DNA of 64,000 nucleotides from positions 1 to 64,000 of the forward strand of contig DAOUTW010000009.1 in NCBI GenBank assembly GCA_030668485.1. Direction: 5' to 3'. The notes beneath the pieces are model-generated. The model was given only the letters and a program-made list of their open reading frames with translations. It was not told the DNA's origin and ran no database searches. This DNA is from Candidatus Zixiibacteriota bacterium. GTDB lineage: Bacteria > Zixibacteria > MSB-5A5 > GN15 > JAAZOE01. Positions 2,227 through 15,097 of the stretch are shown here, in pieces (position 1 is the stretch's first letter; every line of letters starts with the position of its first letter). A program made the position numbers and the translations under genes.

Positions 2227-2586
2227 ATGCAGGTATTGGATGTTTTAAAAGAAGCTGGAAATCTTGCTCAGAAGTATAAAAATATGGAGCTTTATGAACA
2301 ACTATTGACGGTACGTGAAGAACTTTCTGGATTGAGAGAAGAGTTAATCCAGTTGAAGGAAGAGAATAAGTCTCTAAAAGAAAGACTTGAACTACAGGCG
2401 AAAGTCGTATTTGAAAATGGTTTATATTGGATTAGGGGCGACCGGCTTGCAGAAGACAAAGATACGCCAATTTGCCCCAGATGCTGGGATGTTGATAATA
2501 CCCTAATGCGGTTGAAGATATATAAGGATTCTTATGGCAAGGAGAGCGTTTTCTGCTACAATTGTAAGACTGAATATTACTTATGA
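2227..2586 (+). CDS. Coiled-coil plus zinc-ribbon small protein
   Basis: A 119-aa protein of unknown function. Residues about 25-60 are rich in Glu, Leu and Lys with heptad spacing (EELSGLREELIQLKEENKSL) and should form a coiled coil. The C-terminal third has two CxxC pairs (CPRC and CYNC), predicting a zinc ribbon. Short proteins with this plan recur as orphan genes in accessory regions of many bacteria; no function is known to me. The ATG at 2227 was chosen because a longer reading would begin inside groEL and run through the groESL terminator. Codon use is more AT-rich than groEL. Confidence 0.75.
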   Translation: MQVLDVLKEAGNLAQKYKNMELYEQLLTVREELSGLREELIQLKEENKSLKERLELQAKVVFENGLYWIRGDRLAEDKDTPICPRCWDVDNTLMRLKIYKDSYGKESVFCYNCKTEYYL

Positions 2587-2610
2587 CTTTGTACCCCATC
2601 GACGGGTGCC

Positions 2611-2626
2611 CCGGACCTTGGTCCGG
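2611..2626. repeat. REP-like palindrome, copy 1
   Basis: CCGGACCTTGGTCCGG: two 7-bp arms around a central TT, preceded by GGGTGCC. The same unit occurs in inverse orientation at 18937-18952 and 19285-19300, each time next to GGCACCC/GGCACAC. Confidence 0.75.
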
Positions 2627-2705
2627 CTTTATAAGCCATGGGAAAGATTCAGTTGTCTCATAGTTATTAAAATAAGTAAATTTGGGGTAGGAGGAGGTAG
2701 GGTAC

Positions 2706-3191
2706 ATGAATGGTTTTGAATCTATCCTTAATATTGTTGACAAGCTTGGCAAATTTATCGGCAAAGAGTATAAAGGATTCTTGGGTGGTATTATATTATG
2801 TGTCTTTTTGTTTATTTTTTTCTGCTATCCGGATTTGCAGGATTACAATAACTTGGGAAAAAAACTTGGAGATTATAAAATTGTGAAAGGTGGAGAAAAA
2901 GATATTGCCATAGGTGAGTTGAAAATTAAATTTAACAATGTTATATACCACCGCTCAGAAAATGATTCTATTCTAGTCTATCCATCATTCTACTTCTGGA
3001 GTCCGACTATGAATAGATATGAGGATTCAAAGCATCGCTTTGATATCGGACAGAAAATATCTGTTGCATCAGACAAATTCTACTATAATATTAAGCTTGA
3101 AAAAATCGAAATGGAGGGCCGTGATACTATCGCTTTCTTTGTAGTATTTAGGAGCGATCTGCCTGAAATTGGAGATATCTCAAAACCATAA
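2706..3191 (+). CDS. Hypothetical single-pass membrane protein
   Basis: A 161-aa protein not recognised from any family. Residues about 25-42 (FLGGIILCVFLFIFFCY) form one strongly hydrophobic segment. The rest is a soluble domain rich in Lys, Tyr and Ile with predicted beta structure. An unusually strong ribosome site (GGAGGAGG at about 2690-2697) sits before the ATG. Composition is AT-rich compared with the flanking housekeeping genes. It lies between dispersed-repeat fragments, in an accessory patch between groEL and the M32 peptidase, which suggests acquired DNA. Confidence 0.65.
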   Translation: MNGFESILNIVDKLGKFIGKEYKGFLGGIILCVFLFIFFCYPDLQDYNNLGKKLGDYKIVKGGEKDIAIGELKIKFNNVIYHRSENDSILVYPSFYFWSPTMNRYEDSKHRFDIGQKISVASDKFYYNIKLEKIEMEGRDTIAFFVVFRSDLPEIGDISKP

Positions 3192-3458
3192 TGTATAAAA
3201 ATCACTTTGTATCCCACCCTCAGGCTGCGTAGCCTGGAACTCTGCTCCTGGTTTCAAATGCATGGCGGGTGGCCGCAATCTCTGATCGCGGTTTGCAAAC
3301 CCAAATTCAGGTCATCCGCGCGACAGCATAAAACCGGCCTTGCCAGCCATCCACGCGACAGCCAAAAACAGGCTTCTGCCTGCAAAATCGACATAGGTCC
3401 TGCGTTGATTCCGGCCACCACTCTATTATTGAACCTGAATATTCAAGGAGTCTTACCT
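3192..3458 (+). repeat. Mosaic dispersed-repeat region, copy A
   Basis: No gene here. It opens with a degenerate TTTGTATCCCACCCTCAGG fragment of the MITE-like element. From 3309 it carries two tandem modules of the form CATCC..GCGACAGC..AAAACAGGC..TGCC (about 3319 and 3350). Then comes TGCAAAATCGACATAG, leading to a short ORF at 3459. The same modules occur inverted at 18850-18895 and 19180-19270, so this is a member of a dispersed repeat family. Confidence 0.65.
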
Positions 3459-3596
3459 ATGTACACAACCAAAAAGAAAGCCCCATCGAGAGGCGAAGAA
3501 TGGAAAAACATTAAATATCAGAAACGAACCCTAAACTTTGTACCCCACCCTCAGGGTGGGCGAAGCAATTTTAGCCTGAGGCGACTGAGTCCTTAA
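3459..3596 (+). CDS. Short Lys-rich ORF carried by the mosaic repeat, copy A
   Basis: A 45-codon ORF beginning MYTTKKKAPSRGEEWKN, with a good Shine-Dalgarno (AAGGAG at 3445-3450). Its 3' half reads into the 145-bp GTACCCC element, so the C-terminus is repeat-encoded. A second repeat copy (19033-19179, minus strand) has a similarly placed ATG, also preceded by CCTGAA...TACCT, and also encodes a basic peptide. Translation is unproven; it may only be a conserved feature of the repeat DNA. Confidence 0.3.
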   Translation: MYTTKKKAPSRGEEWKNIKYQKRTLNFVPHPQGGRSNFSLRRLSP

Positions 3597-3680
3597 TCAA
3601 GATTCTCCCTGCCAAATATATTATATAAAAGAGACAAACATTTCAGGATCAAATAAAATTCCATCTTTCATGTGGGTGCA
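3540..3680 (+). repeat. MITE-like element, copy 1 (degenerate right end)
   Basis: Starts GTACCCCACCCTCAGGGTGG. It shares with 4925-5069 the left 45 bases (GCGAAGC.ATTTT.GCCTGAGGCG), a central CCTGCCA, ACAAACAT.TCAGGATCAAA, and a right end in CTTTCA.GTGGG. Both copies have the same orientation. The right terminal repeat here has decayed (TGTGGGTGCA instead of GGTGGGGTAC). Confidence 0.7.
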
Positions 3681-3718
3681 GTAAGTAAAAATATCCGTTT
3701 AGAGCGAAAAACGGGATT

Positions 3719-3741
3719 TATTATAACTGACAGTTATAATA
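3719..3741. promoter_or_regulatory. Perfect 23-bp palindrome, possible operator
   Basis: Two 11-bp arms (TATTATAACTG and CAGTTATAATA) around a single A. It ends 14 bp upstream of a TTGACA promoter and about 0.8 kb upstream of an XRE-type regulator gene. This is a typical size and position for a dimeric repressor site. That the local XRE protein binds it is inference. Confidence 0.5.
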
Positions 3742-3755
3742 TACTAAGATTTAGC

Positions 3756-3784
3756 TTGACAAATCATTTATGGTGAGGTATTTT
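3756..3784 (+). promoter_or_regulatory. Sigma-70-like promoter
   Basis: TTGACA (3756-3761), 17-base spacer, TATTTT (3779-3784). The -35 box is perfect and the -10 box is moderate. It would transcribe the micro-ORF leader and the two small genes at 4256 and 4507. Confidence 0.45.
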
Positions 3785-4255
3785 AACCATAGAGACGCTG
3801 AACCGTTCTTTGACAAGTGAATCTGAGCTTTTCAAATGCACTCCTTTTCCAGCTTCAATTAGGTATACGATGGCTCTGCTTTGATTAACTATTTACGGAG
3901 GAAACCATTGTTAGCTTCTTTGATCTACAATAGGGATTTGACGATCTTTTAGGAGTAAATGTGCTGCAATATTTTCTATCGGAAGTGATTTTCAATTCCG
4001 GCAAATATGGGAAATGCTAGAAATGTCAATTTCGGAATGTCAGTATTTTTTTGAAAGGAGGTCCTTAATGAAACCTTAACCAGTTTCAAGAAAGCTGTAA
4101 CACTCCCTATCCCACGGAATCAATGAAGGGAGTCAAGAAGATGGAATGGAAAAGGGGAAAGAAGCCACCCTTTTTCTTACAGGAATCGGCCCTGAAAAGA
4201 AAATAAGCCATCGATCAGGGCGAATGAAGAAACTGGTATAAGGAGGATAGAAACA

Positions 4256-4483
4256 ATGAAGAGTTCGGATTTTTATCAAATGGTTCGGCGTGGCAAAGAA
4301 GTAATTGATTCTTTAAGGCAGCAACAGAAAGGTCAAATAGCCCAACAGGAGTTGGATAGCCTTTATGAGATCTTTGAAAAGCTTGGTGAAATCAAGTCAC
4401 ACGGACCTCCAGCATTTTTTCAGGAATTAATGAGGGTGGTCTTCGAATTGGTAAAGCTAGCTTATAAGATTATAAATAGCTAA
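4256..4483 (+). CDS. Hypothetical 75-aa helical protein
   Basis: Not recognised. It is a small, mainly helical, soluble-looking protein (VIDSLRQQQKGQIAQQELDSLYEIFEKL), with a hydrophobic C-terminal helix (LMRVVFELVKLAYKII). AGGAGG at 4241-4246 supports the start. It is followed after 23 bases by an XRE-type regulator of the same length, so the two probably share a transcript. A toxin-antitoxin or phage-type regulatory pair is possible, but no toxin motif is visible. Confidence 0.6.
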   Translation: MKSSDFYQMVRRGKEVIDSLRQQQKGQIAQQELDSLYEIFEKLGEIKSHGPPAFFQELMRVVFELVKLAYKIINS

Positions 4484-4506
4484 AACTCCTCAGGTCTGGA
4501 GCAAGC

Positions 4507-4734
4507 ATGCACAGCATAGGAAAAACCATAAAATTGTTGCGCCAGTTCGCGGGTCTTCGCCAAGGAGAATTGGCAACCATGACGGACGTTTCTTCTAATT
4601 ATATCTCCTTGGTTGAAAATCAAAAAAGGGAGCCAAGCCTCAAATTCCTGCAGAAAGCATCAGAAAAGCTTGACATACCAATCTCTGCTTTTTTTTGGAA
4701 TGAGCTTGACGTCAACGGGACGACCGACCCGTAA
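4507..4734 (+). CDS. XRE-family helix-turn-helix regulator, 75 aa
   Basis: Nearly the whole protein is one HTH_3 (Cro/C1-type) domain. IGKTIKLLRQFAGLRQGELA leads into TDVSSNYISLVENQKREPSL, the recognition-helix region, then FLQKASEKLDIPISAFF. No effector or protease domain follows, as in small phage, plasmid and toxin-antitoxin repressors. GGAG lies 6-7 bases before the ATG. Together with the upstream 75-aa gene it lies between two direct copies of a MITE-like element. The perfect palindrome at 3719-3741 is a candidate operator. Confidence 0.9.
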   Translation: MHSIGKTIKLLRQFAGLRQGELATMTDVSSNYISLVENQKREPSLKFLQKASEKLDIPISAFFWNELDVNGTTDP

Positions 4735-4854
4735 TTAAGGCGGATAGCAGAGAAAATTAACAGTCTATATTTGGACATGATAAGAAAAAAGCTATCCGCT
4801 TCCTCAATATAGGCTTCTTTGTCTCGATCTCGACAAGATGGAGTCAAAATCCAT

Positions 4855-4890
4855 GACCCTCTCTTTATTGAGGGGGTCTTCCTTTTTTTG
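4855..4890 (+). terminator. Rho-independent terminator
   Basis: GACCCTC, short loop, GAGGGGGTC (one base of slippage or a wobble in the stem), then CTTCCTTTTTTT. It is the likely 3' end of the small HTH transcript. Confidence 0.65.
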
Positions 4891-4924
4891 CCTATTGCCC
4901 CGTACGCTCGTCCGGGAAATATTT

Positions 4925-5069
4925 GTACCCCACCCTCAGGGTGGGCGAAGCGATTTTGGCCTGAGGCGTCAGCATTATTAGATAAGATAATCCCCTGCCA
5001 CATTCGGCTCATATATGAATTACAAACATCTCAGGATCAAATTATAAACCCGCCTTTCAGGTGGGGTAC
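4925..5069 (+). repeat. MITE-like element, copy 2 (intact ends)
   Basis: A 145-bp unit with imperfect terminal inverted repeats: GTACCCCACCCTCAGG at the left, and CTTTCAGGTGGGGTAC at the right, whose complement begins GTACCCCACCTGAAAG. It has no coding capacity of its own. It is a direct repeat of 3540-3680; the two bound a segment of about 1.25 kb holding the XRE gene pair. The terminal repeats and small size fit a non-autonomous mobile element, but no transposase is seen in the window. Confidence 0.7.
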
Positions 5070-5124
5070 AGGTTAGGTCATCCCCGGGAGCGCGGGGCTC
5101 CCGGGCTACTGTTCCCTACCATTG

Positions 5125-6645
5125 TTACCGTTTGATGCCGTATATCCCCTCATATTTATCGTACAAATAATCCAGCAATGGCTTGTGCGAGAGGGATTGG
5201 CCGGTTACCCGTTGGCATAAATCGGCGGCAAGATAGGTTGATCCTTTGGTGTGGATTTTGTCACCCAGCCAGCTAAACAGACCTCCAAATTTGCCGTGAG
5301 TGAAATCATCCAGCAGTCCCGGATTATCCTTTTGTGCCTGCATCCAGAATTGAGCCGAATACAGATTTCCCAGGGCATAAGTCGGGAAATATCCGAAGAT
5401 CCCATGCGACCAATGCACATCCTGAAGACAGCCGTTGGCATCATTATCGATCTCGATACCGAGATAGTCTTTGAATCGGCGGTTCCACTCGCCGGGGATA
5501 TCCTTAACCTTGACGTCACCGGCAATAATGGCTCGCTCCAGTTCGAAACGGAGCATCACATGGAGACAATAGGTCGCCTCGTCGGCTTCGACACGGATAT
5601 ATGATGGAGCAACCCAGTTCATGGCTTGGTAGAAATCATCGAGAGTAATTCCCGCCGTCTCTTCGCGGAATATTCGCTGTAATTGAGGGAAGAAATAGAC
5701 CCAGAACTCCCTCGATCGGCCGACTATATTTTCCCACATACGCGACTGCGATTCATGAATGGCCAGAGAGGCGGTCTCATGCATCGGAGTACCCCAGTGT
5801 TCCTTGTTCGGTCGGGTCATGTCGTAGAGGGCATGGCCGGCCTCATGCATTCCACCGGTCAACCCTTCGGCAAAATCATTGCGGTAATATCGGGTGAGTA
5901 TCCGTACATCCCAGGGTCCCATTTCATTGCAGGATGGATGAGCCGCCAGGTCGAATCGACCGGCCTCGAAATCATATCCCATCGCTGACGTGATCGCCTC
6001 GACAAATATTTTCTGTTTTTCGACATCGTAGGGTCGCTTGAGAATTTTGATATCCGGCTTTTTGGGGGCGTCTTTGATTTTGCCGACAAGTTCGACAAGC
6101 TCTGGCCGCAGGCCATTGAAGGCGGCCTCGAAATCAGCCACCTTGGCTCCGGGTTCAAAATCATCCACCAGCCCATCGTATGCCTCGGTTTCAAAGCCGA
6201 TATAGTCGGCCTTTTGGCGGCACAGGTCGACTATATGCTGAAGGTACGGTTGAAAGATCGCGAAGTCCGATTTCTTGCGGGCCTCGGCCCAAACCTGAGA
6301 GGCCTTTGAGGTTGTGCGGGCAAAGTCCTGGACGAATTCGGTGGGGAGTTTGGTTTCGCGATCGTATAAACGACGCCATTCGCGCACATTGACTGCCGCC
6401 TCAGATTCATAATTCTTCATCAAATCTGAATTCTCAATTACCCCAATTTTATCGCCGATGCTCGGATCTGTAAACCATTTATGCGTCAATTGCGATATTT
6501 GCGCGAGTTGTTCGCCTCGATGGTCAGCGCCTTTTTTCGGAAGATACGCTTCCTGATCCCAATGGAGCACCCCGCCGGTCGACTGCAGCATTGAAATCTC
6601 GATCATCCGCTTCTTGAGTTCTGTGTAAGTCTCTTGTGCAGTCAC
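5125..6645 (-). CDS. M32-family metallocarboxypeptidase (Taq type)
   Basis: Cytoplasmic zinc carboxypeptidase that removes C-terminal residues from peptides; about 506 aa, the usual length. The zinc motif HEAGH lies near residue 267, followed by HETASLAIHESQSRMWEN, the conserved family block carrying the third zinc ligand. The start was set at GTG 6645, because AGGAGG (6651-6656) sits 5 bases upstream; an ATG-started longer frame (6687) would place this ribosome site inside the gene. No signal peptide. Transcribed divergently from the next gene. Confidence 0.93.
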   Translation of the reverse strand: MTAQETYTELKKRMIEISMLQSTGGVLHWDQEAYLPKKGADHRGEQLAQISQLTHKWFTDPSIGDKIGVIENSDLMKNYESEAAVNVREWRRLYDRETKLPTEFVQDFARTTSKASQVWAEARKKSDFAIFQPYLQHIVDLCRQKADYIGFETEAYDGLVDDFEPGAKVADFEAAFNGLRPELVELVGKIKDAPKKPDIKILKRPYDVEKQKIFVEAITSAMGYDFEAGRFDLAAHPSCNEMGPWDVRILTRYYRNDFAEGLTGGMHEAGHALYDMTRPNKEHWGTPMHETASLAIHESQSRMWENIVGRSREFWVYFFPQLQRIFREETAGITLDDFYQAMNWVAPSYIRVEADEATYCLHVMLRFELERAIIAGDVKVKDIPGEWNRRFKDYLGIEIDNDANGCLQDVHWSHGIFGYFPTYALGNLYSAQFWMQAQKDNPGLLDDFTHGKFGGLFSWLGDKIHTKGSTYLAADLCQRVTGQSLSHKPLLDYLYDKYEGIYGIKR

Positions 6646-6794
6646 TGTGTCCTCCTTTGACATGTATCTTGGTACGCAATTTTTCAACGCAGGTTTTGTG
6701 TTTAATCAACAGATCATCCTGGCGGGGTACAGTTTTTTCATGAATTTCCCTTTCAGGAATTGTTATATTGATCGATAATGGCACGGGAGAAATT

Positions 6795-7415
6795 ATGGCT
6801 GATCAATATTTATATCTGCAGGAATATCTGACCCTCATCGACTGGCTTAATGATCGCTGGGGCGGGAAAATCACCCGGAGGTTCGAGGATCGATATAGCG
6901 GATCATCGAGGAAAGTAAATATCGGCGGAACGCTGTCCGGGATATCATCTGATCTCGACGACGACGAGGAAATCCGGGATGTTTATAGCCTTAAATGCTA
7001 CCCCGTTTATCAGGCTTCAATTGAGGGATATCAGGTCGGGATGGCTTTGTCCGACAGTGATCTTCTTGATTTATCGTTTGCCTCTCCGATGAAATGGGCA
7101 TTCAAGATCCGTCATGAGCACTGGGCCGACAAAATGTTCAAAAAACTCCGGCTCGACTATGAATTTCAATCCGGTGACGCCGCTTTCGACAAAAAGTATT
7201 ATATCGAAACCAAAGATCCGGCCCATCGGAAGGTATTTCTGGAAGCCTCTTTGCGGGACTATGTTCAGAGGCTGGAGCCGTTTGAAAAACTGGTAGCCAC
7301 AACATCCCGGATGGCGATAGCCAGAAAAATCGACAGTCCCGATCTCCTGAAGCCGTCGGCTATGAAGGAAATGTTGGATATCATGTTTCAAGCCGCCCGC
7401 TACCTAAAAAGGTAA
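6795..7415 (+). CDS. Hypothetical protein, 206 aa
   Basis: Not recognised. A soluble, mixed alpha/beta protein with no signal peptide and no membrane segments. It is rich in aromatic and charged residues (YLYLQEYLTLIDWLNDRWGGK at the start) and ends in a helical region. The start at 6795 is preferred over 6768 because GGGAG lies about 6 bases before it. It stands alone between a divergent M32 peptidase and a TonB-C lipoprotein. Confidence 0.7.
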   Translation: MADQYLYLQEYLTLIDWLNDRWGGKITRRFEDRYSGSSRKVNIGGTLSGISSDLDDDEEIRDVYSLKCYPVYQASIEGYQVGMALSDSDLLDLSFASPMKWAFKIRHEHWADKMFKKLRLDYEFQSGDAAFDKKYYIETKDPAHRKVFLEASLRDYVQRLEPFEKLVATTSRMAIARKIDSPDLLKPSAMKEMLDIMFQAARYLKR

Positions 7416-7643
7416 AAATCCTTTCGGGAAAGGTTCCGAGCGCCTGAAGGTGTCCAACACCTGATAGATTCCTAATTAAGAAAAACTTGTTTGGGGCGTC
7501 AATTTTTCGTGCAAATTTGATTATGATAGATAATGAAAATCGATCAACAGCCGATAAATATAATAACAATATCATCTTTGCCATGTAGGATTTATTACAT
7601 CAAATCCGGACACCTGGATAATCTTACAAATCTTGAGGACAAA

Positions 7644-14713: not shown

Positions 14714-15097
14714 TTGAGAAAAGCGGACATGAAAAGGTATGAGAAACTTTTGCTGGAGAAACGACGGGAAATCGTAGAGGGTATCGACAGTCTCCGTAAA
14801 GATACCACCAGCACCATCAAGGAATCGACCGGAGATCTGTCGTCCTACTCCTACCATATGGCCGATTTGGGAACCGATGCCCAGGAGCGTGAGAAGAAAT
14901 TTCAACTGGCTTCCAAATCTCAGCGGTTTGTACACCACATTGATGAAGCATTGCGCCGGATTAAGGATGGGACCTACGGTAAATGCCACTCGTGTGGTAA
15001 AGATGTCAGCCGCGCCCGCTTGACAGCGGTACCCCATGCCCGATTATGTATCGAATGCAAGGAGAAGGAAGAAAAAACGAAGGCCCGTCGCAAGTGA
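14714..15097 (+). CDS. DksA/TraR-family C4 zinc-finger protein
   Basis: A 127-aa protein with an N-terminal helical hairpin and a C-terminal four-Cys zinc finger (CHSCGKD...RLCIEC). Family members bind the RNA polymerase secondary channel and modulate transcription with ppGpp. The acidic tip residues of E. coli DksA are not clearly recognisable, so the function is inferred from the fold. TTG at 14714 is chosen because CCGGAGG ends 6 bases before it; the first ATG (14729) is too far from that site. The stop overlaps the lspA start (GTGA). Confidence 0.9.
   Translation: MRKADMKRYEKLLLEKRREIVEGIDSLRKDTTSTIKESTGDLSSYSYHMADLGTDAQEREKKFQLASKSQRFVHHIDEALRRIKDGTYGKCHSCGKDVSRARLTAVPHARLCIECKEKEEKTKARRK

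Follow-up and report, generated by a model that had tools for sequence, protein, structure and literature searches.

What is the segment of about 1.25 kb that lies between two direct copies of a short repeat in a contig of Candidatus Zixiibacteriota, and did the repeats have anything to do with bringing it there? The stretch analysed here (64,000 nucleotides, hereafter the window) had been described in a first-pass annotation as holding a pair of XRE genes bounded by two MITE-like copies, possibly as a repeat-bounded cassette. The physical part of that description holds. The ~145-bp element occurs in two co-oriented copies that align without gaps over 73 nt (82% identity) and 32 nt (81%), with block start-to-start spacings of 1385 and 1388, and the second copy carries the imperfect terminal inverted repeats that had been claimed for it (22 nt, 77% complementary). 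The palindrome, the promoter-like site and the two 75-aa open reading frames (ORFs) were all found in the segment between the copies. The features referred to below are as follows (RT, reverse transcriptase; HTH, helix-turn-helix).

2588–2600, + strand: one-mismatch match to an element end; possible remnant, outside the inter-repeat segment
3206–3218, + strand: a further one-mismatch match to an element end; possible remnant, also outside the inter-repeat segment
3540–3681, + strand: repeat copy 1, a REP/TIRtron-type element with its right end decayed (from the alignment)
3694–3715, + strand: terminator-like hairpin before the operon (consensus match only)
3719–3741, no strand: perfect palindrome, a putative operator for the HTH protein; its core is common to locus L079, with symmetric changes
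3756–3784, + strand: promoter-like site TTGACA-17-TATTTT (10 of 12; top score of the region)
3804–3817, + strand: boxA-like motif CGTTCTTTGACAAG in the leader (rRNA-leader matrix, shuffle p 0.009)
4074–4243 (core 4079–4237), + strand: proposed retron template RNA (msr-msd), from its fold; 14-bp closing helix with one bulge
4256–4483, + strand: ORF1, 75 aa, predicted three-helix protein at the position of the small ORF in type VI retron operons
4507–4734, + strand: HTH (XRE) gene of the type VI retron family, a 75-aa ORF ending at an in-frame TAA
4735–4812, + strand: in-frame continuation of the HTH homology past the stop (read-through match)
4855–4878, + strand: terminator-like hairpin with a T tail, where the RT gene would otherwise stand
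4925–5069, + strand: repeat copy 2, with exact GTACCCCACC at both ends

Our reading, held with good confidence, is that the inter-repeat segment represents the relict of a type VI retron, without its RT and with an HTH gene that has been cut short. The XRE protein provides the entry point. Its best PADLOC model is HTH_VI (PDLC02926; 73.2 bits, E 3.5e-21), with the next model at 30.8 bits. When the match is read through one TAA it reaches 77.2 bits and covers profile positions 2–90 of 92; this in-frame homology past the stop points to truncation of the HTH protein, and the stop itself could be an assembly error. At E 0.001 the model is unspecific: it finds matches in all 14 control genomes and in 127 of the 132 genomes that make up the phylum sample. 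Because it matches many ordinary XRE proteins, only a high score combined with the context carries weight. The first-pass annotation missed the nature of the segment, which resembles the leading portion of a type VI retron.

That context is supplied by ten relatives of the gene pair. At nine loci, L078–L082 from the phylum sample and L093–L096 (among which two contigs are titled Falkowbacteria and Parcubacteria), a small ORF, an HTH gene and an RT gene follow each other in that order. RT_VI (PDLC02952) is the best PADLOC model for the RT at every one of the nine; five of these RTs have YVDD as their active-site motif and four have IDD. At the tenth locus (L083:2403–4006; L092 is the same locus, with identical ORFs, and was counted once), a 277-aa ORF with an FkbM methyltransferase domain splits the RT in two, while ORF1 and the HTH gene are whole. 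Fourteen regions with HTH_VI matches were examined, eight of which held no RT above noise and were excluded as belonging to other XRE proteins; in a further set of nine loci (L092–L100), the ORF listings of L097–L100 showed no RT. A small ORF precedes the HTH gene in 10/10 relatives, an arrangement seen here and not taken from the literature, and ORF1 of the window stands in the same position.

The RT itself was searched for in the window and in its genome. A search of the window ORFs and of all six reading frames of 4735–5125 gave nothing above noise, and the whole assembly (4.5 Mb in 139 contigs, 99.95% complete) gave no match to either RT_VI or RVT_1, although a replicon bearing the RT could be missing from it. 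We therefore do not file the locus as a working type VI retron and, as the absent RT is a defining part, the case for a retron origin is carried by the HTH family, the gene order and the RNA. The locus shares with type VI retrons the family of its HTH protein and, ahead of that gene, a small ORF and an apparently structured leader, like the nine loci whose RT is intact; it differs in having no RT and an HTH gene cut by a stop. With the RT gene gone and the HTH gene shortened, the locus appears to be decaying and no msDNA is expected from it. Among phages, 29 records had RT matches, all below 60% identity. Retron loci altered by gene gain or insertion have a precedent in Sda1 and Bth1 (PMC12548924); the retron RT is present in those cases, whereas none was found in the window, and the split RT of L083 is the closer parallel.

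ORF1 is tied to the small ORFs of the relatives by one significant profile of six tried. Against a profile of L083, L079 and L078 it ranks top of the 821 window ORFs (E 7e-4). It is also the top match, short of significance, to the profiles built from all ten relatives (E 1.5) and from L083 plus L079 (E 0.028), and is absent from the five best matches shown for each of the three remaining profiles. Its predicted fold consists of three helices (mean pLDDT 77.8), for which structural comparison gave no useful match (best E 2.6).

The same two ORFs might instead constitute a working RT-free module, either toxin–antitoxin-like or made up of a regulator and a partner protein; it could have arisen from the accessory genes of retrons or have been their ancestor. 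The HTH protein would then repress the operon from the palindrome at 3719, and ORF1 would be the partner. Both ORFs are open; a promoter, a palindrome and a terminator are in place; antitoxin models, couple_hipB for example, match the HTH protein, far under cut-off; and L083 also has a whole ORF1 and HTH gene beside its broken RT. However, HTH_VI far outscores the other PADLOC models, the homology past the stop indicates a truncated protein, nine relatives have kept the RT, and no toxin-like fold or family was found for ORF1. On balance we regard such a module as improbable, and prefer the relict retron.

The proposed template RNA ends 12 nt upstream of ORF1 and folds into hairpins. Hairpins closed by a helix are how a retron msr-msd RNA is arranged; the helix would then be a1/a2 and the G in AAAGC the putative branch G. 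The fold of 4072–4245, a stretch picked after earlier folding, has a z of −4.3 (0/200 shuffles), and the 14-bp closing helix was reached in 5/300 shuffles (p about 0.02). Stretches of fixed length that end at ORF1 gave z −2.8 at 180 nt and −0.03 at 140 nt. Among the relatives, the leaders of L093–L096 fold strongly at lengths of at least 140 nt (z −3.0 to −5.7), and the upstream stretches of L078–L083 range from 0.3 to −3.6, several of them weak. Judged by eye, the upstream stretches are too different between groups for a covariance model, and Rfam had no match to the window or to the inter-repeat segment. At the edge of the proposed RNA (4053–4079), a strong ribosome-binding-like site is followed by a three-codon ORF (ATG AAA CCT TAA).

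The comparison with complete relatives also bears on how such operons may be expressed. The promoter-like site at 3756 has the top score in a region where eight such sites were found against 3.3 expected. The palindrome just ahead of it recurs in L079 at a similar place with two mismatches, the changes being symmetric; L083 and L093–L096 have 3- to 4-mismatch matches only, and L078, L080, L081 and L082 gave no match. Downstream of the promoter, a boxA-like motif was first noticed in the retron leaders, and the matrix used to score it was built solely from the rRNA leaders of four genomes (G001, G018, G008 and G096). These four leaders come from the six of ten relatives searched that had 16S rRNA matches; no 16S rRNA was found in the own assembly. 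In 6/11 loci (the window, L078, L079, L081, L082 and L083), the best site of the matrix falls 288–452 nt upstream of ORF1, with shuffle p of 0.001 to 0.009, whereas in L080 and L093–L096 p was 0.40 to 0.98. The combined p over the 11 loci is 6e-8 if they are taken as independent, which related loci are not. A shorter word, TGTTCTTTGA, is matched at 9 of 10 positions in the window, a level reached by 18/300 shuffles. L093–L096 have GCTCATTGA in common in the boxA region, which may be a boxA variant. In the paper library searched, one item holds both ‘retron’ and ‘boxA’, a collection of cancer posters judging by its title.

These elements suggest a scheme for the complete relatives. Transcription would start at the promoter adjoining the operator of the HTH protein, and boxA in the transcript would protect the long untranslated leader against early termination. 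A single transcript would then carry the template RNA, ORF1, HTH and RT; the RT would make msDNA, and the complex of RT, RNA and DNA would restrain ORF1, the HTH protein or both until phage attack. A bolder extension holds that expression of type VI retrons proceeds through untranslated transcripts of an rRNA-like kind, with the HTH operator at the promoter, boxA loading the Nus antitermination complex and the template RNA made in full, and that the window locus is a self-regulating, RT-free derivative kept for ORF1, HTH or the RNA alone. We offer this as a speculation and regard it as improbable.

We now turn to the repeats. They are RAYT/TIRtron-type elements, belonging to a dispersed family with hairpin ends. 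In the own genome exact GTACCCCACC occurs 36 times, as opposed to once for the reversed pattern, and several of the 36 sites appear unrelated to the element. The hairpin form, GTACCCCACC-N4..24-GGTGGG, has 20 sites against 0 for the control; it is present in 22 of 40 genomes (own included), at up to 63 per genome, and the control has no match in any of the 40. A loose pattern, applied to the own-genome DNA examined, returned 30 ends (the sister family described below included), 20 of them with the tail TTTT..CTGAG. Many ends of the family are solitary. Copies of 134–145 bp with exact GTACCCCACC at both ends were seen on four contigs: C64:4925, which is copy 2 of the window, C78, C4 and C89. 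A strict pattern recovered one of these four copies as a 144-bp pair, the others having exact outer ends and imperfect right hairpins, and also gave a 163-bp pair on C25 and a 224-bp pair on C4, the latter with one end of the sister family.

Within the window, TTTGTACCCCACC (at most two mismatches) has seven sites against 1.07 expected, a count reached in 0/100 shuffles. Four of the seven lie within or adjoin the two copies or their ends (3537, 4922, 5060 and, with one mismatch, 3206), the site at 2588 has a single mismatch, and those at 14927 and 30616, with two mismatches each, may be chance matches. Both copies begin with GTAC, and this tag at the hairpin base sets the family apart from REPs of the GTAG class. 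Ahead of copy 1, a short ORF (MYTTKKKAPSRG..., 3459–3596) lies 3′ of a ribosome-site-like AAGGAG; its frame enters the copy and stops there, and the ORF was perhaps truncated by the repeat insertion.

A candidate for the mobilizing enzyme is encoded in the same genome, where the Y1 transposase model has ten matches, nine of them above cut-off. The gene on C122, with a product of 175 aa, scores 98.9 bits (cut-off 80) with NF047646, the NCBIfam model for REP-associated tyrosine transposases, and lies between one clear end of the family and one changed opposite end; of the ten Y1 loci, each fetched with ~0.5 to 1.5 kb on either side, it is the sole one with an exact end. Judging from that transposase family, the repeat would be a small non-autonomous element moved by the REP-associated Y1 transposase acting on its hairpin ends. 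A sister Y1 family is also present, with genes on C57 and C53 between GTACCCCGCC...GGCGGGTGGG ends (L022:1350–2037 and L029:1210–1898, ~690 bp each), and hairpins resembling its ends are frequent in G026 and G036.

The label MITE-like fits in kind, in that the element is short, has inverted ends and genomic copies, and shares its genome with a candidate transposase gene. It fails in one respect. A MITE of a DDE transposon features a target site duplication, and none was seen when the flanks of the four two-ended copies were read by eye. Nearer models exist. The element resembles REPINs, as described together with RAYTs (PMC3116915), in being short with two inverted hairpin ends in a genome with a REP-associated tyrosine transposase gene, and departs from them in its tag (GTAC instead of GTAG), its few copies (20 hairpin sites) and its many solitary ends. 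In TIRtrons (PMC3733652), inverted repeats flank such transposase genes and further copies of the repeat are scattered through the genome; the family here shares with TIRtrons/TIRYT a Y1 transposase gene inside inverted repeats and dispersed copies, and differs in being another sequence family and in the changed far end at the C122 gene.

Do the two copies delimit a mobile cassette that brought the gene pair to this site? The pair is framed by two co-oriented copies and the segment is low in GC (0.39 for 3690–4890, vs 0.49 for the whole window; 5 of 314 windows are equally low, some of them overlapping the segment). Against this, element ends were absent from all ten relatives of the pair, in the 5.7–12.2 kb fetched around each. 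The framing of a gene is not special to the window either, since on C78 (30337–31512; L002:1502–2681) an unrelated 265-aa ORF is enclosed by a two-ended copy on one side and, 1.04 kb from it, by another element end. Furthermore, the two-ended copies on C4, C78 and C89 and at 4925 leave no room for genes within their 134–145 bp, and each therefore appears to be self-contained. The genome search proposed in the first-pass annotation did find further copies of the element. We consider the cassette very unlikely; the two repeats are most likely separate insertions.

The repeats could nevertheless have caused the decay without having carried the retron, if the RT was lost when element copies recombined or when a single strand was cut between them. 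Copy 2 starts only 47 nt past the terminator behind the HTH gene, and several element copies lie close together. The terminator between the HTH gene and copy 2 is at the same time a difficulty, as is the failure to find any RT remnant that would mark a break, and we hold this course of events to be quite unlikely. Separate insertions beside a relict retron remain our preferred account.

How the retron itself came to this genome is suggested by the distribution of the HTH protein. The window protein is 53% identical to that of L079 and 51% to that of L083, and its gene differs from that of L079 at 23, 22 and 53 sites by codon position. Its closest relatives, with 104.6 and 90.3 bits, are encoded by G096, which represents another family of the class, and by G053, a member of another family within the order, whereas the version in G002, of the same family, is more distant at 36.4 bits. 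This distribution suggests horizontal spread, with which the low GC agrees. Among plasmids, 37 records match the HTH protein, all at less than 60% identity, and viral contigs held no relative of it.

The neighbourhood offers one further comparison. The groES–groEL pair lies at 142–2102 of the window, and L083 likewise has groES–groEL (3–1058) next to its retron, encoded on the other strand. No groE was noticed in the listed parts of the other loci. The occurrence of type VI retron loci beside groES–groEL in two families of the order may be due to chance or to an insertion hotspot. For the empty sites that the first-pass annotation proposed to look for, the M32 comparison covered one (G003) of five loci, the family search having given other genera only; this nearest M32 orthologue (73%) has no groEL among the ORFs listed at 2500–7500 of its 10-kb piece. 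Between groEL and the repeats, at 2206–2586, is a gene whose product contains CxxC...CxxC in its C-terminal part and matches YabA weakly, below the cut-off.

Type VI retrons are bacterial anti-phage systems, and relicts show which of their parts go first: in both the window and L083 the RT is missing or broken, and ORF1 is whole. ORF1 emerges as a regular third gene of type VI retrons, with a role that can be tested, and the comparison yields a testable rule for their expression, namely an operator of the HTH protein combined with boxA. The analysis suggests that the window locus is a degraded representative of an established kind of system, whose relatives hint at how such operons are switched on.
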